Below are positions 40,008 to 56,691 of a stretch of 64,000 nucleotides of DNA, piece by piece. The notes under the pieces were generated by a model. The model saw nothing but the letters and a program-made list of their open reading frames with translations, ran no database searches and had not been told where the DNA came from. Source of the stretch: Limnomonas spitsbergensis (lineage: Eukaryota > Chlorophyta > Chlorophyceae > Chlamydomonadales); assembly GCA_037349105.1 (NCBI GenBank), contig JAYJMM010000039.1, positions 5,486,501 through 5,550,500 on the forward strand. Reading direction: 5' to 3'. The first letter of the stretch is position 1. Each line of letters begins with the position of its first letter. A program made the position numbers and the translations under genes.

Positions 40008-40795
40008 AGCAGCTGTTGGTTTATGTTGGAAAGGATAAGGCAGGGCCGTACGATTTTTGTGCTCGGACCGATTTGTGGGCGTCAGATGCAATCTCCGCTG
40101 GACTCGAACATCGAAAATCACAGGCAAAGCGTTTTTCCGTCATGTCGGCGGTGGCGATTACTTTGACAAGATGCTCCCCACAATAAACCCGAACCTGCTC
40201 TTGGTACCAGGGAAGGCTGGGCTTTGCATTTTGTTTAGAACGGTGCATACACGTTGGGCCCTGCTGAGGAAACCAATTACCCCGAGTCTGCGTGTTCATG
40301 ACATAACACCTTTGGGCCATGCTGAGATGAGGCTCGGCCACGTCGGCAAACAAAAAGACAGCTAGTATAATCAAGGGAGAAGGCACAAGAGGAAAGAAAG
40401 GATAGCAAGTTCACCAACCAAACAAGAATAACACAGGTCGGGCAAACCGTGTTCCCTGCCCCTGAAGAGACTGTTCTTCAAAAAGCTCAGCTTTAAGTAC
40501 GAAATTCAGGTCCTCCCACCCCTGCATGCAGCTTCTCCGACGTCCTGTCTGGTTGGTGGGAAAATGAAAGGAAGCAAAGGCAAGAAGAAAGACAGAGAGG
40601 CGCACAAAGGGCGAAGAAAACACCCCTCCAGAGAACGGAAAGACAGATCGAAGGATCCCTGCCTCTGAAAGCAAGAGAGAGACAAAAAGGGAAAGAGCCA
40701 GTCCCCAGGTCGGCAAAAACAAGACAGCAGACTAGCCCTCAACAAAGATTCTGCGTTTCGGGCAGTGCATATAGGTTAACGAGCCTGCAGGCAGT
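40008..40795. other. Region between the ILP1 stop and the retroelement ORFs
   Basis: It should contain the ILP1 3' UTR and the 5' end of the retroelement. No TGTAA follows the stop within this stretch. I found no convincing match to the sequence downstream of pol, so no LTR pair can be drawn. Purine-rich from 40,370 on. Confidence 0.4.
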
Positions 40796-42538
40796 GTGCG
40801 CAGCAGTGGACCAAGAAGGCATGAAACCAGAGGGGAAACGCAATCTGATTCCTTCGCCAGGAATTACACAGGAGGGACGCAGCCAGGAAGACAGAACCAA
40901 GGGCAGCCCAGGGGGCAAGCAAGCAGTGAAGAACAGCAGTACTGGCAAAGCCAGGAGATGCCCAGAGAGCAGGAATACAACAGAGAACAACCCAGCTGGT
41001 ACAGCCAAGAGCCGCCCAGGGAGCGGGCAGACAGCAGGGAACAGCCAAACCAGCAAGGCCAGGAGCCGCCCAGGGGGCAGGCAGACAGCTGGGAACAGCC
41101 AAGGCAGCAATGCCAGGAGCCACCCAGGGGAACCGATGAATGCAGCAGGGGAGCACAGCAGGATCGGCAAGGCCAGGAGCCGCCCAGGGGGCAGGCAGAC
41201 AGCTGGGAACAGCCAAGGCAGCAAAGCCAGGAGCCACCCAGGGGAACCAATGAATGCAGCAGGGGAGCACAGCAGGATCGGCAAAGCCAGGAGCCGCCCA
41301 GGGGGCAGGCAGGACCAGGCAGAGCACATCCTTGGAGACCCGGGTCGGGCGACAGACCAGGCAGAAGTGAGACCGGGAGGCAGCCGCGCGACGGGAGTAG
41401 AAGCTCCGCAGGAAGAGCAGGCAGACAGCCGTCACGGGATGATCAGGAGGACAATGACAACAGATTCGACAGATACCGTCCAGGACGCAGCCCGTCAGGA
41501 GGCAGCGGAGGTGGATATGGATCGCGCTCAGAATCAGCGAATTCAGAGCCAAGGGGAGCGGACAGGCGCAGGCCAAGAACCAGGCAGGAGTCCAGCGACC
41601 AAGAAATGAAGAGAATCGACAGGGAGCAGGCGAAATTGACCCTGCAGCTGCAGCAACAGATGGTCCTGCAGCTGACGGGGGTGGCCAAGGTCACCAAGAT
41701 CCCAGCCATCCAAGGCAACGTGCCAGTCCTGGATATGTCGCACCCAGGCGCAGTTGCAGCCAGGAAATATTGCCAGGCGTGTGGATACTGGGGATCGCAC
41801 AACAGGCTGGCAATGTCAGATGACCAGCCAGCGCTGGCTGTGGTGGCCGGTGAAATAGCTGGATCATGCCAGTCGCCGTCAGCTATGACGTTGCTGATCA
41901 AGTCGCTGGTCAAGCTGTGGGACAGCAAGCCGGCCAGCATGGGGCCGCTGATGGCAGCCATCAGGGCGGCGCCCCATGCAGGAAACAGAATTGCCAGAGA
42001 AGTGGAACGGATCGGGCAGCAGTGGATCGCCCCAGCAGAGGAGCAGTGTTGCGAGGCCTCGCTGCTCACTTTGTGGATCAGGGTGGTCCAGGCGGAAGTG
42101 GGAAAACCAACTTCAGAGGAGAGGACAGCCATCACCAACCTCAGGCTAGGAGTAAAGACTACTCTAGACCCGGACGTCAAGCCAGAGGAGACGGTGGAAG
42201 CATTTGCTCACAGAGTGCTGACAACGGCAGAGTTGCTGCAGATCTCAAGGGATGCAGTAGATCACTTCGGCAGAAGCCACTCTGTCTCGCGCATGTTCCA
42301 TGACGGACTCCCAGCTGTTGCTAGAGCCAAGCTGAGCAAGTTCGTTATGACGGTGCCAGGGTACCTCAGCATGACTGATGAAGACCAGATCGCAGTACTC
42401 ACACAGCAGGTGGTGCTGTGGGAGAGGTTTGCCCTGGAAATGGGTGACCTGGGAGGAACCAGCTTCAGGCAGGTGACCAACAGCGGGCCTAGCCAGGGAG
42501 ATGCACAGCCCAACAGGGGCAGAAAAGAGAGAACATGA
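40796..42538 (+). CDS. gag segment 1: repeat-rich N-terminus and capsid-like domain
   Basis: The open frame runs from 40,796 (no ATG there; first in-frame ATG 40,958) to TGA 42,536-42,538. The first 250 residues are Gln/Arg/Glu/Pro-rich, with an imperfect tandem repeat of about 110 bp (near 41,058 and 41,168; motif QEPPRGQADSWEQPRQQ). From about residue 280 a helical region without low complexity (KLWDSKPASMGPLMAAIRAA, LRLGVKTTLDPDVKPEETVE) fits the capsid domain of retrotransposon gag. The next ORF continues in the same frame after a single stop and carries the zinc knuckle expected after a capsid. So the TGA interrupts one protein, by recent mutation or programmed readthrough. Confidence 0.7.
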   Translation: MRSSGPRRHETRGETQSDSFARNYTGGTQPGRQNQGQPRGQASSEEQQYWQSQEMPREQEYNREQPSWYSQEPPRERADSREQPNQQGQEPPRGQADSWEQPRQQCQEPPRGTDECSRGAQQDRQGQEPPRGQADSWEQPRQQSQEPPRGTNECSRGAQQDRQSQEPPRGQAGPGRAHPWRPGSGDRPGRSETGRQPRDGSRSSAGRAGRQPSRDDQEDNDNRFDRYRPGRSPSGGSGGGYGSRSESANSEPRGADRRRPRTRQESSDQEMKRIDREQAKLTLQLQQQMVLQLTGVAKVTKIPAIQGNVPVLDMSHPGAVAARKYCQACGYWGSHNRLAMSDDQPALAVVAGEIAGSCQSPSAMTLLIKSLVKLWDSKPASMGPLMAAIRAAPHAGNRIAREVERIGQQWIAPAEEQCCEASLLTLWIRVVQAEVGKPTSEERTAITNLRLGVKTTLDPDVKPEETVEAFAHRVLTTAELLQISRDAVDHFGRSHSVSRMFHDGLPAVARAKLSKFVMTVPGYLSMTDEDQIAVLTQQVVLWERFALEMGDLGGTSFRQVTNSGPSQGDAQPNRGRKERT

Positions 42539-42547
42539 CAGTGGGAG

Positions 42548-44926
42548 ATGCGGACACGCCTTGAAGGGGTAGTGCACCCCGCAGGCTCAGCAGCCGTACC
42601 GCAGCTGCGGGATGATGGTAAACCCAGAGGAGTTACCTGGGCGGACCAAACTGGGACAGAAAATTACAGCGCAGAAGGCGCTCTGGGAGCAGCCAAGGCG
42701 TGCTACCAGTGTGGTAGCACGGCGCGCCTGGCCAGGGACTGCAGGGTGCCCAGGGCCAGGGATGAGCGCAGGCCTATGCCCCTGGTTACAGACATCACAA
42801 CTGGATCGGCCAGACAGCCGCAACAGCAGTATCCGCCGCAACAGCAGTACCCTCTACCGCCAAGGCCGCAGCAGGGACAGGCTGCAGGCAGGCCGTATGA
42901 ACGGAATCAGAACAATAAGCAGTACCCAAGGCCTGGGCCTAGCCAGGGGGGTCAGGCGCAGCAGGCGACCCACGTGTCGCACTTCAGCAGTGCAACGGTG
43001 CAGGCTGAGCCAGAAGGCTGGCACCGGACCATGGCAGAGATGCTCAGCGAGTCCGTGGCACTCATGACGCAGGTTGGGCTGGCACCCAAGCCTGCGGGTT
43101 TCAAACAGGCGGTTCATAACGCCCGTCCTACGTCGTTTAGGCCGGAACCTTTTCAGGAGGAGGAACCAGTGCCAGGATGCCTGGAACCTGCCTCCAGGAA
43201 GGGGGCAAAGAGGCTGGTATTGAGTAAATTAGCTGATGATCTGTCTGACATCCGCCTACAGGTGTTCAAGCTGAACGAGAGACTCTCGGCGCTGTCTTTC
43301 ACCACAATGCCAATGGGAGGAGACAACTACACGGGTGAGACCAGTAACACCAGGCCAGAGAGTAGAACGATGACAGCTGCACCCCAGCTGCAGTATTTCA
43401 AAAATGACAGAAGCAACCTGGAGCATTGCGTGGGACTTATGGTCAAAGGGAAGGTCCTGGTGGCTCAGAAAGCCCTCATGGACTCAGCATGCACGTGCCA
43501 TGTCATCACTGTCAATATTGCAGAGCAATTAGTTGCCATGGGGGCGGAGCTGGTGCGTACGGATGAGAAGATCCGTACCACAGACAATGCAGGGGCAGAT
43601 CTGTATGGAGTGCTGTTCATTTATGTGGTGTACGGATATGGCGGGCCCAATGCCATTATGGAGCCCACGGTGGTCAGGGTCGTTAAGACGCCACCAGACG
43701 CATATGAGCACTTGGTAGGGAACCCGGAGTTCCTCAAGTATAACGGGGTATTAGAGGCAGCAGGAAGACTGACCTTACGCCCCAGAGAGGGTTCACAGAG
43801 GGCGCAAGGGGTCAGGGACCTTACGCTGCCACTAATGCGGGCATCTCCAGCAGGGGGGTACCAGGCAGCAGCAGTGGCATGGGCAGGAATCCAGTGTGGA
43901 TTCGCAGAAAGAGAGGGGTGGCCCGCTGCAACAGTTGAGGCAGAGCACGAGCCGCTCTTACAGCATGCCATGGCCACACGCGCAGGTGCCGCTACGAGGG
44001 CTGGACAGGACGCAGGACCAAGCAACACGGTACACCCCAGGCTCCAAAGGCAAAGGCTGGTGCCGATCGAGGAAGCACAGGCAGAGGCCGGCGCAGCAGC
44101 CTCAGAGGAGGTGACCAGAGCGCGCAGAGCCGCGGGCATTTCTGCCAAGGATAGAGAATTCATCAGGAGCTGCTTGCCAGCATGCTCCAGCCACCCGTGC
44201 GCCTTGTGCGGGAAGCCAGCCAAGCACTCGCCAGAGGAGTGTGAGAGGAGGATTCAGGATCTCTCGCAGATCCCAGGGACAGCGCCCGCGGCGCAGGCGG
44301 CACCGCCTGTTGCAAGGCAGAGGGAGGCATACGGCTCGGCTGCAACTAGCAGAGCTGCACGCGCGGGATCAGCGTACGGCGCAGGGGTACAAGTACCCAG
44401 CAGGGGCGAGCGGGCTCAGGTGGAGCAGCCGCAAGGGCCGCCAGAGAAGGCAGGACCCAGCCCAAAAGAGGCAAGCAGCAGCGAAGGCGAGGAGGAAGAA
44501 GCAAAGGAGAGCAGTGAGGAAAAGGTCCCGGAGCCAGGGTCCAGCCAACAGGACAAGCACCTGGAAAGGCTGTGCGGCCGGATTGGCGGGCTGAAAAAAG
44601 CTCTCAAGTGGAGAGAAAAACAGATGTGGAGCCAAGCGGCAGGGATTGTCGACTACTTGGGAGGACAGCTGGGCAGGTGGAGGAGCATCCAGGATGCCAC
44701 CCAAGTCCTGGCAGAAGTTCATCAGCAGTACATCCTGCGTGCGGATGACCTGACCAAGCTGCGAGACGCCCTTGGAACACAGCAGCTGGGGGGGCCGCCA
44801 AACCTCGGGCAGCAGCTGACCCATGGAGACCCGGAGATGGCAAGGGAGTTTCAACAAATAATGGCTAACATACGGCCAATGTCGTCTGGGAGCAAGCTTA
44901 GCGACGAGGATGAGGAAGCTCAGTAG
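42548..44926 (+). CDS. gag segment 2: zinc knuckle and aspartic protease
   Basis: Same frame as segment 1, opened by ATG 42,548 three codons after the TGA. CYQCGSTARLARDC (residues about 52-65) is a CCHC knuckle in which the His is Arg. A retropepsin-like domain follows around residues 300-415: ALMDSACTCHVI has the catalytic Asp at residue 312 (DSA in place of the usual DTG/DSG), with a later hydrophobic beta region. A second Cys/His cluster, CALCGKPAKHSPEEC, lies near residue 556. The C-terminal part is acidic and coiled. It ends at TAG 44,924-44,926, again followed by the same open frame. The likely role is nucleic-acid binding and polyprotein processing. Confidence 0.7.
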   Translation: MRTRLEGVVHPAGSAAVPQLRDDGKPRGVTWADQTGTENYSAEGALGAAKACYQCGSTARLARDCRVPRARDERRPMPLVTDITTGSARQPQQQYPPQQQYPLPPRPQQGQAAGRPYERNQNNKQYPRPGPSQGGQAQQATHVSHFSSATVQAEPEGWHRTMAEMLSESVALMTQVGLAPKPAGFKQAVHNARPTSFRPEPFQEEEPVPGCLEPASRKGAKRLVLSKLADDLSDIRLQVFKLNERLSALSFTTMPMGGDNYTGETSNTRPESRTMTAAPQLQYFKNDRSNLEHCVGLMVKGKVLVAQKALMDSACTCHVITVNIAEQLVAMGAELVRTDEKIRTTDNAGADLYGVLFIYVVYGYGGPNAIMEPTVVRVVKTPPDAYEHLVGNPEFLKYNGVLEAAGRLTLRPREGSQRAQGVRDLTLPLMRASPAGGYQAAAVAWAGIQCGFAEREGWPAATVEAEHEPLLQHAMATRAGAATRAGQDAGPSNTVHPRLQRQRLVPIEEAQAEAGAAASEEVTRARRAAGISAKDREFIRSCLPACSSHPCALCGKPAKHSPEECERRIQDLSQIPGTAPAAQAAPPVARQREAYGSAATSRAARAGSAYGAGVQVPSRGERAQVEQPQGPPEKAGPSPKEASSSEGEEEEAKESSEEKVPEPGSSQQDKHLERLCGRIGGLKKALKWREKQMWSQAAGIVDYLGGQLGRWRSIQDATQVLAEVHQQYILRADDLTKLRDALGTQQLGGPPNLGQQLTHGDPEMAREFQQIMANIRPMSSGSKLSDEDEEAQ

Positions 44927-47254
44927 GAGCAGAAGGAATCTGAGAGCAACGACACCAGCAACTCAGGGAGCCGACGACTCCGACAGCGCAGCAGAAGCGC
45001 GCACAGGGCCTCCAGTGGGGAGCGCCACAGGGTGGTGCCCACGCCGGAAGCCAGGACCCAGCGGCAAGGCGCGGCGCAGCGCAGCACCAGTGAGGAGCGG
45101 GGCAGGGACCGCAGGCAGCAGTCTCCCGGCAGGGACCGCAAGCAGCATTCACCCAGTATGGGCCGCAGGCAGCAGTCTCCCGGCAGGGACCGCAGGCAGC
45201 GGTCGCCCAGCAGGGACCAGCCCAGGGGCAGGTCCAGGGATCGCCAGCCAGAGGGATTTGCCAGGCCATACAGGCAGGGGCCAGGGTATCAGAGAGGCCC
45301 AGGCCTGAGTCCGCCGGGCAGGGCCCAGGCAGGAGGCAGTGGGGTGGCAGAGCCAAAGCGCAACCTAGGACCCCGCCATGGTGGAGCCTGCTTCAGGTGC
45401 GGCCAGCCAGGGCATTTTGCAAATGAATGCACCAACCCTGAGCAGGCCGTACAAACAGGCGACAGGCCAGGAGCACCTGCAGGCCCAGCACGGGGCTATG
45501 GAGCCAGAGGGCCTGGCAGGAGTCAGGATGTCCCCGAGGGGAACCGGCGCCGGACCTTCGAGACTGCTATGGGGACGCCCCGCGAAGGGGACTGCCAGCA
45601 GGCGGCAGCGGGCCCAAGCGCGTGGCCAGGACCGCCGGAGCGACAAGAACCGCCAGGCCAGGGCGAGCAACCAAGGTGGGGTGAGACAGGAAGCCACACG
45701 TGCTTCATGACCAGCCACATGGGGTTTAGCCAGGACAGGGGTGCCAACCAGGCTGAGGTCAACCAGGCAGCACCAGTTCAGGTGACTTTCCAGAGGGTGC
45801 CAGAAGGGCAGGTAGCCAGGCAGGTAAACCACTGGACAATGGCAGTAGAGGCGTTGGCCATGAACCATTATGGGACCATGCCAGCGGGGTCGGCCAGATC
45901 TGTGACACATGCGATGGGATTCTTGGGGGACCTCCAGCGGAGGGTGTGCCCAGCCCCGTGTGAAGGTTGGCCGGGTATGTTGCAGAGGGTCCTAGACATG
46001 GAATGGGACAAGTATGATGCACAGTGGGATGAGTTTGAGAGACGCGAGAGGGAGGCAGTGCCCCAGCACAGCGTAGACGGGTGGGAGACCGGTTCCAGTT
46101 GGGACGGCTCCAACCTTTCAGAAGAAAGATACGAGCCTCAGGAACCATCACCATTGCGTGAAGAAGAGTTTGCCGTGATATGTCCAGGTACCCCGGAGGG
46201 CAACCACGACACAGGCGAAGGGGTAGCGGGAGCAGCCGCCGGGACCAGGGATCCGACCAGCGCGAGGGTTCGCTGCCCAGGGGCCAGGGGGCCCGCAGCA
46301 AGGAGCCAGCGGGACGATCTGGCGGGGCCCGTTAGGACCCATAAAAGCACCACCTCCCAGTACAATTCGGGGGGAGGGGGAGACGAGGCCGAAGAGTCGC
46401 AGCACGGCCGTGGCAGAGGCTGGTGGTCCACCGCAGGGAGCGAGGACAGCCAGTTCGGTCAAGCAGGCGGGGTCATTCGCGACAGATCTTACAGCAGAGA
46501 GCGTGTCCACATAGAGCCATATCCGCCGACACCGCCAGAAAGCGAGCCCTTTGTGCAGTATTACCGCCTGGGGGAAGAGATGCCAGAGGCGTCCACCTCC
46601 ATGGCCATGCTGACCTTGCCAGGAGGGAACAAGGACGGGCTGTGTCGGTTGCAAAATCACAGGCTCCAGGAAGGCGGCGTGCAGATGTGCGTGAACAGGT
46701 TGGCAGCCAGTCAGGCAGTGGCCAGGATGATCTTCCCGGGGGACGCAGTGACTGCGGTGTTACTGCAAGCAGCGCTCCACGGGTACATTCAGCCCAGTAC
46801 AAATATGCCTAGTTTCATGGCGCGCGGGTGGGGGCGGCACCCCATCTACGTAGCCTGCGCGACTGAAATGGTGAATTTGGCAGTCACAGAGGGCATCACA
46901 GCGGTAGAGGCAGCAGCCAGGGCGCACCCGGATGTGCCCAACAGCGTGCGCACAGAGGGGCTGTGGCGGGGGGCGTCGCCCAGGTTCATGCGCTCACAAT
47001 GGGCGGAGGACTGTGTCCGTCAGCTTATGGGGCACACAGCTCTCAGAGACCGCGCATTTTATGTGCCAGTACAAGCCATGGGCGAGTACGAGGGGTTTGA
47101 GGGAACAACAGAGCAGGCCCCAGCCGGGGCAGGACTGTGCCATCCGGGCAGGCCAAGGCGGTGTGAGGCGACCATTGAGGCGTCCATCGTCATCCCCAGG
47201 ATGGTCGCAGGACAGGCAGTGCCATGGGGACGGCACCAGGGGAGGCCAGGGTAG
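44927..47254 (+). CDS. gag segment 3: RS-like domain and canonical CCHC knuckle
   Basis: The frame of segments 1-2 stays open from the codon after TAG 44,926 to 47,254; the first GTG is at 45,032 and no early ATG is evident, which argues for continuation and not for a separate gene. It opens with Arg/Ser/Asp/Gln repeats (GRDRRQQSPGRD type), then a perfect CX2CX4HX4C knuckle CFRCGQPGHFANEC (near residue 120 counted from 45,032). The remainder is unrecognised, with helical segments after 46,600. Its last 31 nt overlap the start of pol, which lies one base back in frame. Confidence 0.65.
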   Translation, partial: EQKESESNDTSNSGSRRLRQRSRSAHRASSGERHRVVPTPEARTQRQGAAQRSTSEERGRDRRQQSPGRDRKQHSPSMGRRQQSPGRDRRQRSPSRDQPRGRSRDRQPEGFARPYRQGPGYQRGPGLSPPGRAQAGGSGVAEPKRNLGPRHGGACFRCGQPGHFANECTNPEQAVQTGDRPGAPAGPARGYGARGPGRSQDVPEGNRRRTFETAMGTPREGDCQQAAAGPSAWPGPPERQEPPGQGEQPRWGETGSHTCFMTSHMGFSQDRGANQAEVNQAAPVQVTFQRVPEGQVARQVNHWTMAVEALAMNHYGTMPAGSARSVTHAMGFLGDLQRRVCPAPCEGWPGMLQRVLDMEWDKYDAQWDEFERREREAVPQHSVDGWETGSSWDGSNLSEERYEPQEPSPLREEEFAVICPGTPEGNHDTGEGVAGAAAGTRDPTSARVRCPGARGPAARSQRDDLAGPVRTHKSTTSQYNSGGGGDEAEESQHGRGRGWWSTAGSEDSQFGQAGGVIRDRSYSRERVHIEPYPPTPPESEPFVQYYRLGEEMPEASTSMAMLTLPGGNKDGLCRLQNHRLQEGGVQMCVNRLAASQAVARMIFPGDAVTAVLLQAALHGYIQPSTNMPSFMARGWGRHPIYVACATEMVNLAVTEGITAVEAAARAHPDVPNSVRTEGLWRGASPRFMRSQWAEDCVRQLMGHTALRDRAFYVPVQAMGEYEGFEGTTEQAPAGAGLCHPGRPRRCEATIEASIVIPRMVAGQAVPWGRHQGRPG

Positions 47255-50200
47255 CCATCCCGGTCCAGCAGCTAGTAACTTACTACTATGAGGAGGTGGA
47301 AGATGGGGAATTACCTGTTTCAGCAGCATGGATCCACATGCACGCAACTCAGGATGACATGCCCGTCTACCTGTTTGCACGGCACCAAGGAGACGTGGCA
47401 ATCACTAAATGCGCGTCAGTAGACGAGGCGGAGTTCCATGCCTACACCTACGCCAGGGGAGCAGACCCGACAGCGTGGACGGTCATGCTTATGGCGCTGC
47501 AGAGGGTCCTGCTCCCAGGACAGCTGTCAGCGGCCATGCGGCATGTGTGGGGCGTAGAGGATCAGTGGGCACCTTCGGAGGTAACAGCCTGTCCCGCATG
47601 GCCTTACGGGCCCCAGAGGACGCCAGCATCGGGAGCCATGTGGGAAGGAGAGGAGGAGCTGGCGCGCTCGCCGTTCGCAGTAGAACGACTGGAAGCATGC
47701 GTGCACCAGTGGGTGCGTCAAGAGAGGAGAGCGTGGCACAACAACAGGGCCAGCAGCGTGCTGCCCTATTGGCAGGCAGACGTCATAACAACGCAGTTGT
47801 GGAGACAGGCGCACCCGGCAGGGGTGCGCACGCTGCACCCCCTGTTCAGAGGAACAGGGGAGGTCGCCATTGAGGAGGAGTTGGAGGCCCTGAGGAACCA
47901 GCCGAGGATAGGACACTGGCTGGTGGGCAGGCGCGGTGCCTACTCGGAGGAACCAGCGGCCGCCACCGACGGTCCTATCCCGGAAGAGGAGCCAGAATGG
48001 ACCCAGGCAGCATTCGTCACCACATTCGGGGCAGCTGCATCCTCATGGGAATGGCTGGAGCCCGCAGAAGAGATGGGAGTGTCAGCACTGGAATCTGAGC
48101 CTAGGGGACGGGCAGAGCCCCAGTCACCCCAAGACAGTACCAGCGCTCCGCTTGCAGAGGACCTGGACAGCAGGAACCCAGGGTACAGCGACGACCTTTC
48201 GGAGGGGCCGCCACCACTGGTGGAGATAACGGGGTCAGAAGAGGAGTGGTACGAGGGAGGAGCCATGCCCCCGGACCAGGATAGCGTCGCCAGAGCAGAG
48301 GCTCGGGATGCAGAAGGAAATGATATGCCATCCGACAGAGGCCCAGGACCAGGGAGTCCGGGGCACGACCTCGAGGAAGAGCTGACACAGCTGCGGCGCG
48401 AGTGGATGCGCAGCGTCGTTCAGGAGCAAGCAGCAATGGAGGAGCGCAGAATCAGGAGAGCCGCGATAGAGCGCAGTAACGAGATCACACTGGAAGAGGG
48501 GACGCACCAGGCCGCAGTAAGGGTCAGCCCGCGGCAGGCAGCAGACCAGTGCGCTTTCGATTCAAAGGAGGCAGCAGCCAGCGGGGCTGGCAGCAGGCGC
48601 CCAGGGGACGCCCAGATCAGCCAGCCAGTGCAGGCAGCGGCAAGGGAGCCCTGGGGTGACCCGGCATCATACAGTACGGGGTGCTGGATGGCAGTGCTCA
48701 GGAACTTCGTAGATCAGCTGGACGTGCTGAGAAGGCGGGAAATGGGGCAGCAAGAGGCAGGCCAGGAGGCTAGCCTGCTTTTCCGACTCAGAATGCTGCC
48801 ACAGCCCGATCCTAACCCCAAGATGGGAGGATACAACAGGGTGATCAGAGATCTACAGGAGGAGTTGACGGAGAGGATATCAGCCCTTGGGGCGACAAGG
48901 GCCGGTGCAAGTGCTGCACAGCAGACCGCAGGCAGTCACAGCAGCCAGGCCCCAGGTGTGCAGCAGTCGCGGCCAGCGGATAGGGTCGGTGGAGCAGCTA
49001 CTGCAGAAAACAGCCACAGCAGCAGCTGGTCGGCAGGCCGAGCAAGACAAGTGGCCAATGACAGGAGAGGCATGAGGCAGTACGGAGGACCAGCAAGGGC
49101 CGCGCGCGCAGGAGTCAGCGAGGCTGCGCAGCACACCACCCGCGGGCAGGAGCAACAGGCGCAAGACAGCAAGGGACACGCCCCAGAAGCACGGCCAGAG
49201 AGGCCCGGTGCAGCTTGGGCTGACACAGCCAAGTTACAAGGCAAGAAGTCCAAAAAGGCTAGGCGACGCGTAGGAGCGGCGCAGAGGAAAGCCGCGGAAA
49301 GGGACCGCGGTATCAGGCCAGGCATGGACTGCCCAGGCCAACCTTCCAGGATCTGCCAGGTGGACTTGGAGATAACATGGGAAGCGGAACAGCAGAGGCC
49401 AGAGCAGAGTGCAGGGCCACGCGAACAGCCTGCAGCGCACCAGCCGCAGGAGCCTGCAAGACGGCTGCCATCCTGCAGGGGGCTCCTCACTAGTACGGCT
49501 TTTAAGGGGTTCCTTATGGGGACGCTCCAGCTGGTGTTGGTATGGCTCCTGCTGTCCGTATGCATCCCGGGTGCGCGAGCCACCGGGCAGGGAGTGAGAG
49601 GAGGAGGATTTACAGCAGGCCAAGGAGCTTTTGTGTCCAGCCAGGAAGCCGCAGCAAAGCTCACGTCAGGCTGGCTGCGCCCGCCAGCAGTCAGCCCTAT
49701 GGGGGGCGCCAGCAGGACAAGGGGCGAGTACAGCCAGCAGGAAGACTGGCAGCGCGGCAACAGCACAGGCGAGGAAGCGCCGCCCGCGGAGGACAACCCG
49801 CAGGCGGCGGAGATGATTGACATGTTCCAACCGGGGGGAGTAGTCGAACCACCCTCGGAGTACGTCAAGACTAAGGAGGGGTGGCTGCTGGGCCAGCACC
49901 CTGACTTCACGGCGGACCAGCAGGAGACCCTCGAGCAGAGCCTCAGGGATCGCCAAGGAGCGTTCGCTTACTCCATGGAGGACTTACCCGGCTACTGTGG
50001 CACGCAGGGTGAGTTTACACTGGCGTTGGAAGACGAGGTCAGTTCGTGCTTTCAGAAGTCCAGGGATATGCCACCGCCTAAGGCGGCCATTTTTAAGGAA
50101 AAGTGTCAGCCGATGATTGAGGCAGGCATCATAGTCAAGGTGCCCCAGGGAGGGCCCATTAAGTTTGCAGCCAACTCAGTGGTAGCGGCTAAGAAGAGTG

Positions 50201-53200
50201 CTGAGACGGGGGAGTGGACAGACCACCGTATAGCGCACGATATGCGCAGGTTAAACCTGCGAACGGCTAAGCAGGAATTTGCCATCCCCAGGATGGAGAC
50301 TATTTTTCAGAATCTGGGAACTGCCAAGATATTCAGCAAGGTTGATCTCCGGTCGGGGTTCATGCAGATCCCTATAAAGGTCGAGGACCAGCCTAAGACA
50401 GCTTTCTGGATGGGTCCTGAGCTTTGGATGTACACAAATCTCAATTTCGGGCTGCGCAATGGACCGCCTTTTTTCCAGCGTATGATGGAAGAGGAGATTG
50501 CCAGGGCAGGATTGAGTGCTTTTTGCGTTGCATTTATTGACGATCTGCTAGTGTACAGCGATACACCGGCAGACCACATCAGGCATGTGGAGCTGATGCT
50601 GGACATGCTCCACAGTGTAGGGTTGAGGGCGCACCCCGACAAATCGCTGTTTGGGTGTGCAACAGTTGAGTACTTGGGGCACAATGTGTCTGCCCAGGGG
50701 CTCACGCCGCATGCGGCTAAGATTGCAGCGGTTATGGCGTTGCCAGAGCCCGCGTCGGTGAAAAACATCCAGGAGGTCATGGGGTTCCTGAACTTCTACC
50801 GGTGCTACATCCCGGATTTCTCGAAAAAGGCGGCATGCATCAACGCATTGCTGGTCAAGGGGATCCCGTTTGTGTGGGGGCCAGAGCAGTCGCAGGCGTT
50901 CCAGTTGATCAAAACAGAGATGTGCGAGGGCGGAAGAGTCCTGCGCAGACCAGATTACAGTGGGACAGGGCCAGACGGCAAGGGGCCGCCAAGGCCGTTC
51001 TTATTGTACACAGATTTCTCTAAGCAGGGCATAGGCGCCGTGCTAGGGCAGTGTGATGACAGCGGGCGGGAGTATATGGTGGCATGCACGTCCAGATCCC
51101 TGAACAAGAGCGAGAGGAACTATTCCTCGTTCCAGGGGGAGATGCTGGCCGCAGTGTATGCGGCACGCACATACCGCCACATGCTCTTTGGGTGCAAGGT
51201 GCATCTCATCACTGACCATGAGCCGCTCACTTACCTCATGGACAATCAGACGTTGGTGGGCCAGCACGCTAGGTGGGCTCTCATGCTCCAGGAGCTGGAC
51301 ATTACCATTGTCCACCGCTCAGGATCATGCCACCAGAATGCAGACATCCCGTCCAGGTTACCTCTCGTTTCCTCAGCCGACCGCACGGGGGCCAGGCTTG
51401 ATACAGCTGCCCCCGAACCAGCAGTCCAGGGGGAGGCAAGTGGGAAGCAGGTAGCTTTGCTCACAGGGTTGAGCAGAGTCAATCAGTGGCATGCAGACCA
51501 GGTGGTGCGCATGGCGCAGGAGGGAAGAAGGAGAGTACAGATGTTGCGGGCTGCAGAGGCAGCTTGCGTGACAGCGCCGGTGGGGCAAGAGATATCCTCT
51601 GCCGCCACTGACGATGATGAGCAGGCGCAGCCTGTCAGTACGGCAGAACAGGCGTTCAGCAACAGGGAGCGGGCCAGGACAATGATCAGTGATGTACTTG
51701 CTGACCTGCCTCGGGTGACGCCCCCTCATTTACATGCAGGCCTGGACACAGCTTGCCTGTCGAGTGGGGCTGTGCGGGCCATGGAGACCGAGGGAGTCGT
51801 CCTTTTCGAGCCCTTTGGAGGTATGTGCTCAGGGTTGGAAATGGTGCTCAGGGCGGGTATCCCAGTGGTGCAGTACTTGTATGCGGATATCAGTGAGGAA
51901 GTCAGAGAGATCGCAGGGGGTCGCCTGGTGCAGTTGCACAGGAGATACCCTCACTTGCTTCCGGTCAAAGCGTTTGATAAGGCTTTCAGAGCGTTGCCCC
52001 AAGATGTGTATGCCATTACGGCGGAGCACCTCCAGGAGGCGGGCGCCCAGGAAGGGCGCCAGTGGTTCATGGTAGCAGGCTGGGAGTGTCAGGACCTCTC
52101 GTCAGCAGGCAAGGGGCGTGGGCTCGCGGGAGAGAGAAGCAAGTCTTTCTTCCCGTTAGTCAAGCTGTTGGGTACACTGCAGATCCTGCAGGGGCCTAGG
52201 CCGCCAGCGTACCTGATTGAGAATGTGGCAATGCAATTGAATCAGAGAAGTGTGAAGGCCAGTGTTGATGCCTTTCAGGAGGTGTGCAGGATTCTGGGAA
52301 CACCGGCGTTGTTTGACGCAGCGCAGGTGGGGTCTTACGCCCACCGCACTCGCAACTATTGGGGGAATATCGCCCCTGCAGCAGATATCGAGTTTGTGAT
52401 TCGTGCGTCGACCAGACCCCACGGGGGGATAGTAGACGACATTCTGGACAAGGGCAGCAAGGCCCAGATAGTCTCATGCCCTGACAATGGGGGGTACCGC
52501 ATCAACGTAACAGGACAGCCCAGGAGGGTGCTGCCGTGTTTGATGGCCACGCCCTCATCATATTCTTTTCGGAACGGGCAAAATGGGATGGTGTACAGAA
52601 CCATGGGGGACTTGCAGGAGCCCAATGCAAACGAACGTGAACGAGCCATGGGGTACGCTGTGGGGTCCACATTGCCGCGCCCAGACTTCCCAGAGGCGGC
52701 CAGGAGGGCAGCCTTGGGCAGGTGCATGGATTCGTGGGCACTAGGAGCATGGCTCAATGTGGCACTTGAGTGTGCTAAAATCATACCAGAGGAATTGAAA
52801 CGCAGAGCAAAGCTGCCAGGCCCGGACATGGATCCAGTGCTTGGTGCAACTTTAATGTCCAGCCACTACGCCCTTGCTACTGCAGGAAACGCGTGCTCTG
52901 GCAGCGGAGAAGCGGCAGCGTCATACAGGCAGTGCCTGGGAGAATCCGCTGCGGCAGATTGGGCCGACGCGGCACAGGAACCAGGTGGGAACACACCTGA
53001 GGAAAAAGTTGATGTTGAAATCGAGGTGACCAGGGACACAGAGGGTGAGAAGGACCCGCCAGGATGTCCTGCAGGACCATCGGCCAGGGTTGATGTGTGG
53101 GCAGATGAACCTGTATTGAGATTTCTCCGCGAGACAACATATGTTCAGGGAACAGAGCTAGGAGAGCAGACCAGAATACAGCGCAGAGCGGCTCCATTCC

Positions 53201-54894
53201 AGTGGGAATCAGAGAGGGGAGGAGTACTGATGAGACTCATGCCTGATGGTAGGCGTTGTGTGGTGCCCAGGCCAGAGGACAGGCTTGCAGTAATCCAGAC
53301 AGCCCATGCAGGTACGGGCCATTTTGGCAGCCACCGCACGGCTTTCATGGTCATGCAGCAGCATTGGTGGCGGGGGCTTAGAGCAGCAGTCAAGAAGGCG
53401 GTGCAGGAATGCGGGGTGTGTGACAGGGCCAGGGCGTCCACGTTCAACATACAGCCCGACCTGCACCCGCTACCCATTGAGGGGTTGTTTTTCCGGTGGG
53501 GAGTGGACCTGTGTGGGCCATTCACGACCACTTCCAGGGGCAATCGATTTGTGATGGTGTGTGTGGAGCATTACTCCAAATGGGTGGAGTTGATCCCCAT
53601 TCCAAGCAAGGCGTCTGATGTGACGGCCTTGGCATGCTTTCAAAATGTTGTTGCAAGATTCGGAGGATGCGCAGAAGTGGTGACAGACCAGGGAACAGAG
53701 TTCCAGGGTGAATTTCAGGACATGTTGTTGGACTGCTTCATTGATCACCGCACCACTTCTGCCAACCATCCCCAGGCAGACGGGCTATCAGAGAGGGCTG
53801 TCCAGACCCTCAAGGCAGGCCTGCGCAAGTGCTGCGAGGAGGGCAGCAGCGACGAGTCCTGGGACAAGATGGTGCCCTGGGTGGCCCTAGGCTTCCGGTG
53901 CTCGCCGCAGCAGGCCACGCGCATGGCGCCGTACGAGGTGCTGTTCGGGCAGAGACCCACCTTTCCCTCCAGAGTGGGGGCGGACCTCTGGAACACAGCC
54001 AAGGTGGCAACAGCAGAAGAGGCAGCAGACCTGCTCTTGGCCAGAGTGGCCAGGATCAAAGAGGCGCTGCCAGTCGCGGGTGAGCATCTGAAAATTGCGC
54101 AGCACCGCGACAAGCTGCGATATGCACGCATTCGTGGGGGAGGGTATGTCCCCCAGGTCAGGCGTTTTGCAGAGGGAGATTACGTGTATGTGAAGTATTC
54201 ATCAGAACGACGCAGCCTCGATCCCAAGGCCAGGCCTGAGATCCTAAGGGTGAAGACACTGGGGGTGACGGGAACCTTGGTTTTGGAGGGGGCAGATGGC
54301 CTCACAGTAACAGAGAATGCTGTCAATTGTTCTCCATGCCACTTACCCAACCTCAGGGGAGTGGTTGATTTCAGTGGAACCAGACCCAATAACAGCCTGT
54401 CATGCGAGGTGTGCCAGCTGCCTGATCGCGGAGAGGTGATGCTTTTGTGTGATGCCTGCAATACAGGTTGGCACATGGATTGCTTGGTGCCAGTACTCGA
54501 GAAGGTGCCTGAGGGCGAGTGGTTGTGCCCAAAATGCACACCGGATGACAAGGGAGCTGGGCCCGCTGAAATAGCAGGGCCCGCTACAGAAGATCGCAGT
54601 TTGAAGGCCCAGGGGCGGCCGAGCCCAGCAGCCAGAGCGGCTGCCAGAACAGCCCAGGAGGCCAGTGTCATGGACAGGCCTGAGGTGGAAGTCATGGCCA
54701 CCAACCCAGCAACAAGACAAATGGAGCGGGGCATCGCAAGACCAATGGCGAACGGATTGTACGACATCTCGTACACCACTGGCCGGGGAGAGGCCAATGT
54801 CACCCCGAGAGCAGTTACAAGAAGGGCTAAGGTGGCCAAAGAAGCAGCAAGGGAAGAAGAGGAGTCAGCCCTTGAGGAGCTTACCGAGACCTGA
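47224..54894 (+). CDS. Pol polyprotein: RT, RNase H, C5-methyltransferase, integrase, PHD
   Basis: 2,556 aa from ATG 47,224. Residues 1-900 are acidic, Gln/Ala-rich and unrecognised, with a strongly hydrophobic segment FLMGTLQLVLVWLLLSVCIP near 764-783. RT about 940-1160 with FIDD at 1104-1107. RNase H about 1259-1380 (YTDFSKQGIGAVL, HQNADIPSRL). Methyltransferase about 1528-1850. Integrase: zinc region about 2025-2070, catalytic D2095, D2155, E2190 (34 residues between the last two, one short of the usual 35). PHD finger about 2390-2440. It copies, methylates and integrates DNA if active. The frame is intact over 7.7 kb, which suggests recent activity. Protease is upstream in the gag frame and not at the pol N-terminus. 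Confidence 0.9.
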   Translation: MGTAPGEARVAIPVQQLVTYYYEEVEDGELPVSAAWIHMHATQDDMPVYLFARHQGDVAITKCASVDEAEFHAYTYARGADPTAWTVMLMALQRVLLPGQLSAAMRHVWGVEDQWAPSEVTACPAWPYGPQRTPASGAMWEGEEELARSPFAVERLEACVHQWVRQERRAWHNNRASSVLPYWQADVITTQLWRQAHPAGVRTLHPLFRGTGEVAIEEELEALRNQPRIGHWLVGRRGAYSEEPAAATDGPIPEEEPEWTQAAFVTTFGAAASSWEWLEPAEEMGVSALESEPRGRAEPQSPQDSTSAPLAEDLDSRNPGYSDDLSEGPPPLVEITGSEEEWYEGGAMPPDQDSVARAEARDAEGNDMPSDRGPGPGSPGHDLEEELTQLRREWMRSVVQEQAAMEERRIRRAAIERSNEITLEEGTHQAAVRVSPRQAADQCAFDSKEAAASGAGSRRPGDAQISQPVQAAAREPWGDPASYSTGCWMAVLRNFVDQLDVLRRREMGQQEAGQEASLLFRLRMLPQPDPNPKMGGYNRVIRDLQEELTERISALGATRAGASAAQQTAGSHSSQAPGVQQSRPADRVGGAATAENSHSSSWSAGRARQVANDRRGMRQYGGPARAARAGVSEAAQHTTRGQEQQAQDSKGHAPEARPERPGAAWADTAKLQGKKSKKARRRVGAAQRKAAERDRGIRPGMDCPGQPSRICQVDLEITWEAEQQRPEQSAGPREQPAAHQPQEPARRLPSCRGLLTSTAFKGFLMGTLQLVLVWLLLSVCIPGARATGQGVRGGGFTAGQGAFVSSQEAAAKLTSGWLRPPAVSPMGGASRTRGEYSQQEDWQRGNSTGEEAPPAEDNPQAAEMIDMFQPGGVVEPPSEYVKTKEGWLLGQHPDFTADQQETLEQSLRDRQGAFAYSMEDLPGYCGTQGEFTLALEDEVSSCFQKSRDMPPPKAAIFKEKCQPMIEAGIIVKVPQGGPIKFAANSVVAAKKSAETGEWTDHRIAHDMRRLNLRTAKQEFAIPRMETIFQNLGTAKIFSKVDLRSGFMQIPIKVEDQPKTAFWMGPELWMYTNLNFGLRNGPPFFQRMMEEEIARAGLSAFCVAFIDDLLVYSDTPADHIRHVELMLDMLHSVGLRAHPDKSLFGCATVEYLGHNVSAQGLTPHAAKIAAVMALPEPASVKNIQEVMGFLNFYRCYIPDFSKKAACINALLVKGIPFVWGPEQSQAFQLIKTEMCEGGRVLRRPDYSGTGPDGKGPPRPFLLYTDFSKQGIGAVLGQCDDSGREYMVACTSRSLNKSERNYSSFQGEMLAAVYAARTYRHMLFGCKVHLITDHEPLTYLMDNQTLVGQHARWALMLQELDITIVHRSGSCHQNADIPSRLPLVSSADRTGARLDTAAPEPAVQGEASGKQVALLTGLSRVNQWHADQVVRMAQEGRRRVQMLRAAEAACVTAPVGQEISSAATDDDEQAQPVSTAEQAFSNRERARTMISDVLADLPRVTPPHLHAGLDTACLSSGAVRAMETEGVVLFEPFGGMCSGLEMVLRAGIPVVQYLYADISEEVREIAGGRLVQLHRRYPHLLPVKAFDKAFRALPQDVYAITAEHLQEAGAQEGRQWFMVAGWECQDLSSAGKGRGLAGERSKSFFPLVKLLGTLQILQGPRPPAYLIENVAMQLNQRSVKASVDAFQEVCRILGTPALFDAAQVGSYAHRTRNYWGNIAPAADIEFVIRASTRPHGGIVDDILDKGSKAQIVSCPDNGGYRINVTGQPRRVLPCLMATPSSYSFRNGQNGMVYRTMGDLQEPNANERERAMGYAVGSTLPRPDFPEAARRAALGRCMDSWALGAWLNVALECAKIIPEELKRRAKLPGPDMDPVLGATLMSSHYALATAGNACSGSGEAAASYRQCLGESAAADWADAAQEPGGNTPEEKVDVEIEVTRDTEGEKDPPGCPAGPSARVDVWADEPVLRFLRETTYVQGTELGEQTRIQRRAAPFQWESERGGVLMRLMPDGRRCVVPRPEDRLAVIQTAHAGTGHFGSHRTAFMVMQQHWWRGLRAAVKKAVQECGVCDRARASTFNIQPDLHPLPIEGLFFRWGVDLCGPFTTTSRGNRFVMVCVEHYSKWVELIPIPSKASDVTALACFQNVVARFGGCAEVVTDQGTEFQGEFQDMLLDCFIDHRTTSANHPQADGLSERAVQTLKAGLRKCCEEGSSDESWDKMVPWVALGFRCSPQQATRMAPYEVLFGQRPTFPSRVGADLWNTAKVATAEEAADLLLARVARIKEALPVAGEHLKIAQHRDKLRYARIRGGGYVPQVRRFAEGDYVYVKYSSERRSLDPKARPEILRVKTLGVTGTLVLEGADGLTVTENAVNCSPCHLPNLRGVVDFSGTRPNNSLSCEVCQLPDRGEVMLLCDACNTGWHMDCLVPVLEKVPEGEWLCPKCTPDDKGAGPAEIAGPATEDRSLKAQGRPSPAARAAARTAQEASVMDRPEVEVMATNPATRQMERGIARPMANGLYDISYTTGRGEANVTPRAVTRRAKVAKEAAREEEESALEELTET
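50060..51365 (+). other. RT and RNase H domains
   Basis: RT landmarks: FSKVDLRSGFMQIPI (palm motif A), LNFGLRNGPPFFQRMM (motif B), FIDDLLVYS (motif C, catalytic Asp pair at residues 1106-1107), VEYLGHNVSAQGL. The connection GFLNFYRCYIPDFS leads to RNase H with YTDFS, SRSLNKSERNYSSFQGEMLA (which holds the catalytic Glu), TDHEPLTYL and HQNADIPSRL. All are typical of Ty3/gypsy elements. Confidence 0.93.
51805..52790 (+). other. DNMT3-like cytosine-5 DNA methyltransferase domain
   Basis: Motif I FEPFGGMCSGLE (residues 1528-1539, SAM binding); motif IV GWECQDLSSAGKG with the catalytic Cys at residue 1622; motif VI LIENVAM (Glu about 1666); motif VIII AHRTRNYWGN, close to the AHRARYFWGN form of DNMT3; motif IX/X region ERERAMGYAVG and LGRCMDSWALGAWL. 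The order and spacing fit a complete C5-methyltransferase fold. The Pro before the catalytic Cys, near invariant as PCN/PCQ, is Glu here. It sits between RNase H and integrase in frame with both, so it is part of the polyprotein and not a nested gene. Confidence 0.88.
53300..54000 (+). other. Integrase zinc-binding and catalytic core
   Basis: HAGTGHFGSHRT...CGVC forms the HHCC zinc motif. The core has GVDLCGPF (D2095), VVTDQGTEF (D2155) and NHPQADGLSERAVQ (E2190). The region after the core (54,120-54,340) has the small beta-rich character of the C-terminal integrase domain. Confidence 0.92.
54397..54540 (+). other. C-terminal PHD finger
   Basis: A C4-H-C3 pattern: CEVC, CDAC, WHMDC and CPKC, with the Trp two residues before the last Cys pair (EWLCPKC) typical of PHD fingers. 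PHD fingers read histone tails, often H3K4 methylation state. It occupies the place where chromoviruses carry a chromodomain, so targeting of integration is a reasonable inference. Confidence 0.88.
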
Positions 54895-55558
54895 GGCCGA
54901 GCCCAGAGCGGCAAGGTCGCTGAGCACGTGACGTTACCCACGCCGTAACTGGCAAGGAGCGGGCAGGCGCCTACAGAGCAGAAGTGCAGACGCAGCCCGG
55001 CTTGTCCTAGTACCCGGCAGGCAGTGGGCCGGCAGCCAGCGGACCGAAGACGGAAGATGCAGGATTGGAGTTAAAAGCTATCGCAGCAACATAGTGAAAA
55101 TTTGTTTCTCAAACATCGTAGCAGCAAAGCTGCGGTAGTACATATGTTATGAAGATGATGAGCGAGGAGAATTAGTCAACTCGGGCGATGATAACACAGC
55201 CAGGGGCGGATCACGCTGCTACGGCGCACATTTCCTGTGGCCATTGAAGACCAGGCGGCTATGGCGCAGTGGGGCGAGAGCAGCGGTTGTTCTTTGCTTG
55301 ACCTGATAACTTTGAAGATTTTTCTGTTTGCTAGCCAGTAGTGGGCTGAACAGCTTGGATTTGTAGGATTCCGCGCATTGCGCTTCAGCTGAGACTTGGT
55401 GGATTTTTTTTAGTTCTGATTGAAGAAGGCCTGAACCAGGCAGATTTGCTGAGACGATTTGAGCTTCTACGTACATATTTTTCCAGAAGTTTCTTTCAGT
55501 ACCACCCCTTTTCCGGCTCCCCGCGCACGCCTTAAGGCTTAACGCTGGGGAGCGGGGG
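54895..55558. other. Retroelement 3' region, no ORF
   Basis: Non-coding sequence after the pol stop, ending in a purine/G-rich stretch (GGGGAGCGGGGGGCGAG at 55,547-55,563) directly before the direct repeat at 55,559. That is where a polypurine tract would sit if the repeat were the element's 3' LTR. No matching 5' LTR was found. Confidence 0.4.
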
Positions 55559-56691
55559 GCGAGTAAAGTAGTAGGGGCGGTACCCACGAGACGGAGACTT
55601 CCAGGCAGAGACAGCCAGTCAGAGACATCCAGTTAGGGACTTCCAGTTACAGTCATCTTGTTAACAAGCTCTTGTATGTAGTACAAGGAGCATGAGTGTA
55701 CGGTGATGTACCGTATTTGTGAGTAGAGGACACCTTTCTAAGGTGTCCTGACCGGAGTTTACGGTATTTACCATAGTATTGCAGTTACTGCTTTATGGTG
55801 CGACAGCTGTCACAGTATATTACCGTATACGTGACAGAACCGTTTGAGCCGCCACTAGCGGCCACGGAGCCTCCGCAGCTTCTCTGCGGAGTCTCCGGAT
55901 TTGAACTGAGACCTAGAAACCCGCTTACGCAGGGTGATTTGACAGATTCTACCGTACTCTGAATTGGGCCTGCCGGGTCCCTGTATCCCGGCAATTGCCT
56001 AAACTAGTTACTTCGTCCCTTTCTAAAGGACAGACCTCTATTTGTAACAAGCACCGGCCGTCATCCGTGTATGAGACCTCCTACGTTCACATAAGTCAGT
56101 ACCCTAACTCAAGTCAAGACTAGCTCAGCCTCCGCTGAGATAGCTGGAGACAAGTACCTAGTAAGAGGACCGAGACCCTGCCGAAGAAGAAGTACGCAGT
56201 CCACGTCCCGTCATCCTCACCGCGTGACGCGCGGTAAGTGCCCTTAACATAGCCCAGCTGGATCGCGCCCAGACGGCCAGAAGGCCTACACTACCTTAGT
56301 CAATTGCTAGACATACAAATATCCTGCTCTGCCGCTTAACTCGCTGAGCACTCGCAGCCAGTGTGTAGTCACTGAGCCTGCCCGTAGGCGTCCGTCACTG
56401 CCGTGAGGAAAGAAGTCCGCCACGGACCTGAAGCGCACATCGCGAGTAAAGTAGTAGGGGCGGTACCCACGAGACGGAGACTTCCAGGCAGAAACAGCCA
56501 GTCAGAGACATCCAGTTAGGGACTTCCAGTTACAGTCATCTTGTTAACAAGCTCTTGTATGTAGTACAAGGAGCATGAGTGTACGGTGATGTACCGTATT
56601 TGTGAGTAGAGGACACCTTTCTAAGGTGTCCTGACCGGAGTTTACGGTATTTACCATAGTATTGCAGTTACTGCTTTATGGTGCGACAGCT
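55559..56691. mobile_element. Terminal direct repeat element (TRIM-like or tandem LTRs)
   Basis: A 250-bp sequence at 55,559-55,808 recurs at 56,442-56,691 with one difference (GAGACAG/GAAACAG). It starts GCGAGTAAAGTAGTAGGGGC and ends GGTGCGACAGCT. The 633 bp between have no coding capacity. Near-identity means a recent event. Either a small non-autonomous LTR element, or the 3' LTR of the neighbouring gypsy element duplicated by recombination. No TG...CA ends or clear target duplication are visible. Confidence 0.6.

Follow-up and report, generated by a model that had tools for sequence, protein, structure and literature searches.

A methyltransferase domain in a Gypsy-order pol frame

We analysed a stretch of 64,000 nucleotides from the chlorophyte Limnomonas spitsbergensis (contig JAYJMM010000039.1; hereafter the window), which carries a 5'-truncated copy of a large retrotransposon whose pol frame encodes a cytosine methyltransferase. 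An earlier note on this DNA, made from the sequence alone, had described a Gypsy-type element with a DNMT3-like domain in one uninterrupted pol frame between RNase H and integrase, regarded it as a chlorophyte case of such a capture and proposed that the element may methylate its own copies. The features of the frame are:

47179..54894, plus strand: pol frame, 2571 aa
50224..50688, plus strand: reverse transcriptase (RT), with FIDD at 50533
50989..51294, plus strand: RNase H (RT_RNaseH), profile match
51781..52788, plus strand: DNMT3-like C5 methyltransferase (MT) domain, by profile, fold and motifs
52078..52110, plus strand: MT motif IV, GWECQDLSSAG, including the catalytic Cys
53275..53436, plus strand: zinc-binding H2C2 domain of the integrase (INT), profile match
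53497..53772, plus strand: integrase core (rve), profile match
54403..54537, plus strand: PHD finger, profile and PDB sequence matches

These features confirm that the window pol is of Gypsy order (RT, RNase H and an integrase of the DDE type), with a DNMT3-like domain that lies in frame behind RNase H and ahead of the integrase, and with a PHD finger downstream of these, and the frame is uninterrupted over all 2571 residues, as the earlier note had stated. The methyltransferase call was borne out by a profile search, in which PF00145 matched the window pol, with motifs I, IV (including its Cys), VI (EN) and VIII (RxR) following one another in order. The DNMT3-like identity also held: the domain is nearest to DNMT3 by profile and by predicted fold, its motif order is not rearranged as in DRM, the best match of its structure model was DNMT3 and the closest solved structures are DNMT3-type DNA methyltransferases. 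DNMT2 and DRM were not among the best 50 VIA rows listed for the model, which is uninformative on either. Matches in NCBIfam were all weak, the best being dcm (23.8 bits against a cut-off of 100.65). A search of the genome for DNMT1-RFD found no match, but its control was likewise silent, and scans of IMG/VR retrieved only distant methyltransferases on viral contigs (21-32%, 27 loci), with none for the query P0072. Among the matches listed (60 of 100), the best PDB matches of the PHD finger were CHD4, Lid, PHF12, WSTF, ATXR5 and BAZ2A, and we take these nearest solved relatives to be mostly readers of unmodified H3 tails.

Split terminal repeats and target duplications

Downstream of pol, the window copy ends in a set of direct repeats of two kinds, A and B:

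55545..55561, plus strand: polypurine-like tract before B1
55562..55805, plus strand: terminal repeat B1, ending GCGACA
55802..55811, plus strand: palindrome GACAGCTGTC at the B|A joint
55808..56444, plus strand: terminal repeat A2, starting TGTCAC
56011..56032, plus strand: 22 nt that pair exactly with the putative primer-binding site (PBS) following A1 in other copies
56445..56688, plus strand: terminal repeat B2

No A1 matching A2 was found within the window, and a search for ordinary long terminal repeats (LTRs) around the pol frame came back empty because the copy is truncated at its 5' end and its repeats are permuted. The full arrangement is seen in eight of the nine copies examined, which begin on the 5' side with a lone A1 of ~630 nt and close on the 3' side with B1-A2-B2; in the ninth (C109), which has B1-A2-B2, the 6.5 kb fetched contained no A1, and the counts out of eight exclude it. 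Identical complete LTRs at both ends are thus not what these copies carry, but split direct repeats, A1...B1-A2-B2, so that the earlier term Gypsy-type stands for the order of pol and fails for the termini, which are not those of an ordinary LTR element. The repeats are 99.4-100% (A1/A2) and 99.6-100% (B1/B2) identical within the eight copies. The element ends in TGTC...GACA and is flanked by 4-bp target duplications in all eight (TGGT, CACC, ACCG, AGAA, TGCA, CAGT, GTGA and CTCA), as is the one solo A-B examined (GGTA); the duplications were read by eye, and for C26, C19 and C116, in which the boundary as printed overran TG or CA, one end was moved accordingly.

A1 is directly followed by a sequence whose exact reverse complement, 22 nt long, lies within A2 in all eight copies and within A1 in seven, an apparent self-priming site judged by complementarity, and a purine-rich tract directly precedes B1 in all eight. 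Because the PBS adjoins A1 and the polypurine tract adjoins B1, the LTR of the cDNA would be B-A, its first strand having been self-primed from A. The integrated form, A1-coding-B1-A2-B2, would then correspond to a pair of abutting B-A LTRs that integrase has cut at the B|A palindrome, the central GC being lost; the substrate would be a circle or an equivalent form with joined ends. The integrated ends of other copies fall on either side of this palindrome. Among 95 PBS sites, a B|A joint lay 0.4-1.2 kb upstream of just one (at 1131 nt, in C27, a nested insertion by our reading), and a same-strand B|A joint lay 1-25 kb downstream of 54, at 16.5-18.5 kb in 32. This count covered 94 B1|A2 and 95 PBS places on contigs C3-C35, rows of C36 being excluded, drawn from the first 100 of 474 and the first 100 of 422 places, respectively.

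An alternative source of the permuted repeats would be a templated circular intermediate, as in PAT and DIRS elements, in place of the 2-LTR circle that ordinary reverse transcription would yield. The order A1 / B1-A2-B2 is that described for Ngaro, PAT and VIPER in the accessible parts of PMC6681497, and most A2|B2 joints are identical, having no extra base in five of eight copies and at 224 places genome-wide by exact pattern (163 by a narrower one). However, the joint varies in a way expected of end-joining, with an extra T in two copies and TG in one, and genome-wide with T at 23 places, TG at nine and A at 20. T and TG match the opening of the PBS, and the extra A served as a control for a base from elsewhere; as A turns up roughly as often as T, the PBS need not be the source of the extra bases. 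The position of the PBS by A1 and of the polypurine tract by B1 fits ordinary LTR reverse transcription. Moreover, a DIRS or PAT element would have a tyrosine recombinase and no target duplication, whereas here we found TG..CA ends, rve and H2C2 domains of a DDE integrase, 4-bp duplications in eight of eight copies and no tyrosine recombinase (PF00589) in the frames scanned, which were part of those across the copies. We therefore regard a PAT-like circle as doubtful, and a 2-LTR-like precursor as the better account of the termini.

Copies in the genome and selection on the methyltransferase

Copies were searched for across the 260-Mb genome (124 contigs). With the MT domain as query, 122 copies including that of the window were scored out of 968 candidates, all at an identity of at least 95%, and the domain is free of stops in 116 of them. 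Open frames extend up to 5315 aa; since the frame of that length, in C26, begins shortly after A1 and by arithmetic would reach the end of pol, single-frame gag-pro-pol copies appear to exist. Exact patterns for the joints occur at 422 (A1|PBS) and 474 (B1|A2) places, and reversed-pattern controls at none. The element is very abundant, with hundreds of copies in the genome.

Pairwise pooled Nei-Gojobori ratios of nonsynonymous to synonymous substitution (dN/dS) were 0.018 for RT, 0.023 for RNase H, 0.046 for INT, 0.093 for MT and 0.271 for the PHD finger. They were computed on the window and 20 copies, leaving 20, 20, 18, 21 and 20 sequences, respectively, after omission of one copy whose fetched piece did not match RT and one whose piece did not match RNase H, and of three INT rows and one PHD row for gaps. 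Eight copies were picked by terminal repeat. Three of these have a complete MT domain (dN/dS 0.120) with all four motifs intact and no stop in MT, in two the fetched piece yielded no match to MT, and three (L079, L082 and L084) have one common deletion that removes most of MT together with the integrase zinc finger and core. The breakpoints of this deletion correspond to window positions 51821 and 53772, with 52881-52985 retained. The MT domain is thus under purifying selection, with a dN/dS of 0.09-0.12. Third-position transitions among copies less than 4% diverged affect 6.4% of CpG sites, compared with 2.8% of CHG and 2.5% of CHH sites; judged from these substitutions, the excess would fit CpG methylation, whichever enzyme methylates.

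Homologous polyproteins and the methyltransferase family

A search of 5.8 billion proteins, restricted to long ones (E 1e-3; 7781 candidates), yielded 49 long homologues. Precomputed domains include RT, RNase H or integrase in 48 of them, the exception (P0015) having just a retropepsin-type domain. The order RT-RNaseH-MT-INT-PHD recurs in 45 of the 49; RT is missing in two, the PHD finger in one, and MT is the sole recognised domain in one. Conservation across the family is.450 for MT,.437 for RT,.539 for RNase H,.474 for INT and.443 for PHD, so that MT is conserved about as well as RT. Its divergence tracks that of RT (r 0.68) and INT (r 0.76; 0/999 permutations each), showing that MT has been inherited together with both.

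All 50 sequences, those of the window and the 49 polyproteins, have the catalytic Cys, EN and, in RxR, the second Arg, the first Arg being present in 49; the residue preceding the catalytic Cys is Glu in 45 and Pro in five. A tree of 71 MTs, covering the present clade and its nearest MT-only relatives, has a branch with 100/95 support that parts 59 rows (the window, the 49 polyproteins and nine shorter proteins) from 12 MT-only proteins. This neighbouring group (P0067-P0077 and P0083) has PCQ in all 12 tree members, and in a wider set some of its members lie on contigs >100 kb.

Two matches carry names, from Chromochloris zofingiensis and Dunaliella salina, and their gene models, read by eye, are continuous with RNase-H-like sequence before them and integrase-like sequence after. 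These named relatives give good support to a chlorophyte host, with which the window's own exon for the small subunit of RuBisCO agrees.

Some further features vary within the family. Five of the 49 long relatives (P0013, P0014, P0023, P0028 and P0030) have a DPFAGSG motif after the PHD finger, followed by SPPF in four. The tail of P0014 scored 2.3e-4 (21.4 bits, under the cut-off of 22) against the N6-adenine family MethyltransfD12 of Pfam, and found no significant match in the searched stretch of the window. A hydrophobic segment (>1.8 Kyte-Doolittle) precedes RT in 12 of the 20 relatives that have at least 200 aa there, as one does in the window.

The window copy and its surroundings

The remaining features of the copy are:

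40779..56688, plus strand: 5'-truncated copy of the ~19-kb retrotransposon, right end ...GCGACA at 56688
40775..47254, plus strand: gag-pro frame, in three open pieces of 587, 795 and 775 aa
43481, plus strand: retropepsin-like DSA in gag-pro, read by eye
45389, plus strand: CCHC knuckle in gag-pro
49507..49581, plus strand: hydrophobic, signal-like segment upstream of RT, read by eye

Window position 40779 aligns to ~3197 of the C36 copy, counted from the start of its A1, and, compared with that copy, some 3.2 kb is missing from the 5' end of the one in the window. In C4, the distance from the start of A1 to the end of B2 is 18,983 bp by arithmetic. The gag-pro frame of the window copy has two in-frame stops (TGA at 42536 and TAG at 44924), and its pieces found no homologue among the 49 polyproteins at E 1e-3. 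Upstream of the element lie tandem arrays at 36025-37416, 28826-30466 and 24331-25268 (52-nt units, 22-nt units and a third array), and a by-eye reading places the probable final exons of a plus-strand host gene at 38800-40008, ending ~770 bases upstream of the element. The RuBisCO small-subunit exon has its best PDB matches in 1UW9, 1IR2 and 1GK8 (115 bits), presumably Chlamydomonas structures. Scanning the window against Rfam (at the gathering threshold) and for tRNAs gave no matches.

What the methyltransferase may do

Taken as a whole, the locus is best explained, in our judgement with somewhat better than even confidence, as a truncated copy of an abundant Ty3/gypsy-order element with a self-methylating MT, a PHD tether and integration from a circle. 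On this account each copy would already be methylated on entering chromatin, MT having acted on CpG in newly made element DNA no later than integration, and the PHD finger would tether the integration or methylation complex to nucleosomes. That MT acts on the element's own new DNA is the most likely of its possible roles, because it lies beside the cDNA-handling enzymes, is under selection and is of DNMT3 type; going by these sequence features, we put it at about an even chance.

Several observations weigh against this. The dN/dS of MT is about five times that of RT (0.093 vs 0.018), and the constraint on it is therefore weaker; the copies of the main set were, in addition, picked by MT identity, which biases the dN of MT downward. 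In the first copy set, stops occur in RNase H of two copies and in INT of one, and in MT of none, and projected stops in INT occur in two of the three repeat-picked copies with complete MT. MT is not needed in cis, because three of the eight repeat-picked copies have lost most of it. The CpG excess was measured on element copies alone, without a host control. Lastly, motif IV reads ECQ, not PCQ, in 45 of the 50 polyproteins.

The copies that have lost MT bear on a different role, action chiefly in trans, in which the targets would be host genes, competing elements or the DNA of invading viruses and the enzyme would be kept because it helps host or element to survive. Since one deletion is common to them, L079, L082 and L084 are probably a non-autonomous derivative mobilised in trans, and an antiviral role for such domains is proposed in the accessible parts of PMC6338049. 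Yet MT is fused into pol beside enzymes that handle cDNA, and its divergence tracks theirs, and we find such action in trans improbable. Slightly less credit still goes to an MT with lost or lowered catalysis, serving as a DNA- or nucleosome-binding scaffold, to which the Glu in place of Pro in motif IV would point; against it stand the invariant Cys, EN and second Arg, the near-invariant first Arg, and the low dN/dS of the domain. Methylation of element RNA, and not DNA, has a precedent in the RNA targets discussed for LINE-type retrotransposon DNMTs (PMC5890265, in part), but the nearest solved relatives of MT being DNA methyltransferases, we think it very unlikely. Finally, a host gene insertion, or either of the cases that the earlier note had named as overturning its claim, a separate host gene or an assembly chimera, is ruled out by copy number for practical purposes, given hundreds of genomic copies and 49 homologous polyproteins from other sources.

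Self-methylation, which might serve as stealth, protection or self-limitation, remains the role we favour. It may be carried further, tentatively and with a good deal less confidence, into a scheme in which a circular (2-LTR-like) precursor is opened by the DDE integrase at the LTR palindrome, a DNMT3-PHD module methylates this precursor and the copy is placed as pre-silenced chromatin; the present family and the Klebsormidium element would then belong to one ancient green-lineage Gypsy clade, with no independent capture.

Comparison with known systems

The capture itself is not new in kind, because a Gypsy element with DIRS-like repeats whose Pol includes a DNMT3 has been published for Klebsormidium nitens (PMC5890265, in part). 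The parts of a 2019 review that we could consult already count green algae among the hosts of methylase-encoding retrotransposons (PMC6338049), and those of a 2025 survey give streptophytes and dinoflagellates as the reported cases (PMC12344493). As far as the accessible parts of PMC5890265 go, KnitGypsy-Dnmt3 resembles the present element in having a DNMT3-type domain in a Gypsy Pol open reading frame, purifying selection and DIRS-like terminal repeats. It differs in its charophyte host, and the word 'PHD' occurs 0 times in the main text of that paper, whereas the present family has a PHD finger; those parts likewise describe no target duplication, self-priming site or motif IV change, the two sets being compared by description only. 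None of the matches from our searches could be recognised as coming from K. nitens. SymbioDIRS-Dnmt3 and SymbioLINE-Dnmt are also retrotransposon-borne cytosine methyltransferases, of DNMT3 type in DIRS, but they reside in tyrosine-recombinase or LINE elements of dinoflagellates (PMC5890265, in part). The same parts report de novo CpG methylation in yeast by SymbioDIRS-Dnmt3 domains, an inconclusive result for the K. nitens domain, and a proposal that retrotransposon DNMTs methylate cDNA.

The termini recall those of PAT, Ngaro and VIPER, with A1 at the 5' and B1-A2-B2 at the 3' end (PMC6681497, in part), but those are tyrosine-recombinase elements and the present one combines a DDE integrase with TG..CA ends and target duplications of 4 bp. 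The pairing of MT with a histone-reader finger in one polyprotein is loosely like that of ADD and DNMT3. In self-priming LTR elements of the Tf1 type, the primer-binding site is complementary to the element's own sequence; here the match is one of 22 nt to a site within A. Chromoviruses carry a chromatin-reader module at the C-terminus of their integrase, a chromodomain, and the present element has a PHD finger instead.

Searches of the open-licence literature turned up neither a chlorophyte family with the order RT-RH-DNMT-INT-PHD nor a Gypsy element that combines split repeats with target duplications, which is weak evidence of absence. What is new is the chlorophyte family, the PHD partner and the A1-coding-B1-A2-B2 termini with TG..CA ends, 4-bp duplications, a DDE integrase and an apparent self-priming site. 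With this, retrotransposon-borne DNMT3 extends to a large family of chlorophyte elements, hundreds of copies of which lie in a single genome; whether such elements methylate themselves, and why this is selected, thereby becomes testable. The permuted repeats and integrase-type target duplications, in turn, suggest a route of integration from joined LTR ends, which standard LTR biology treats as a dead end.
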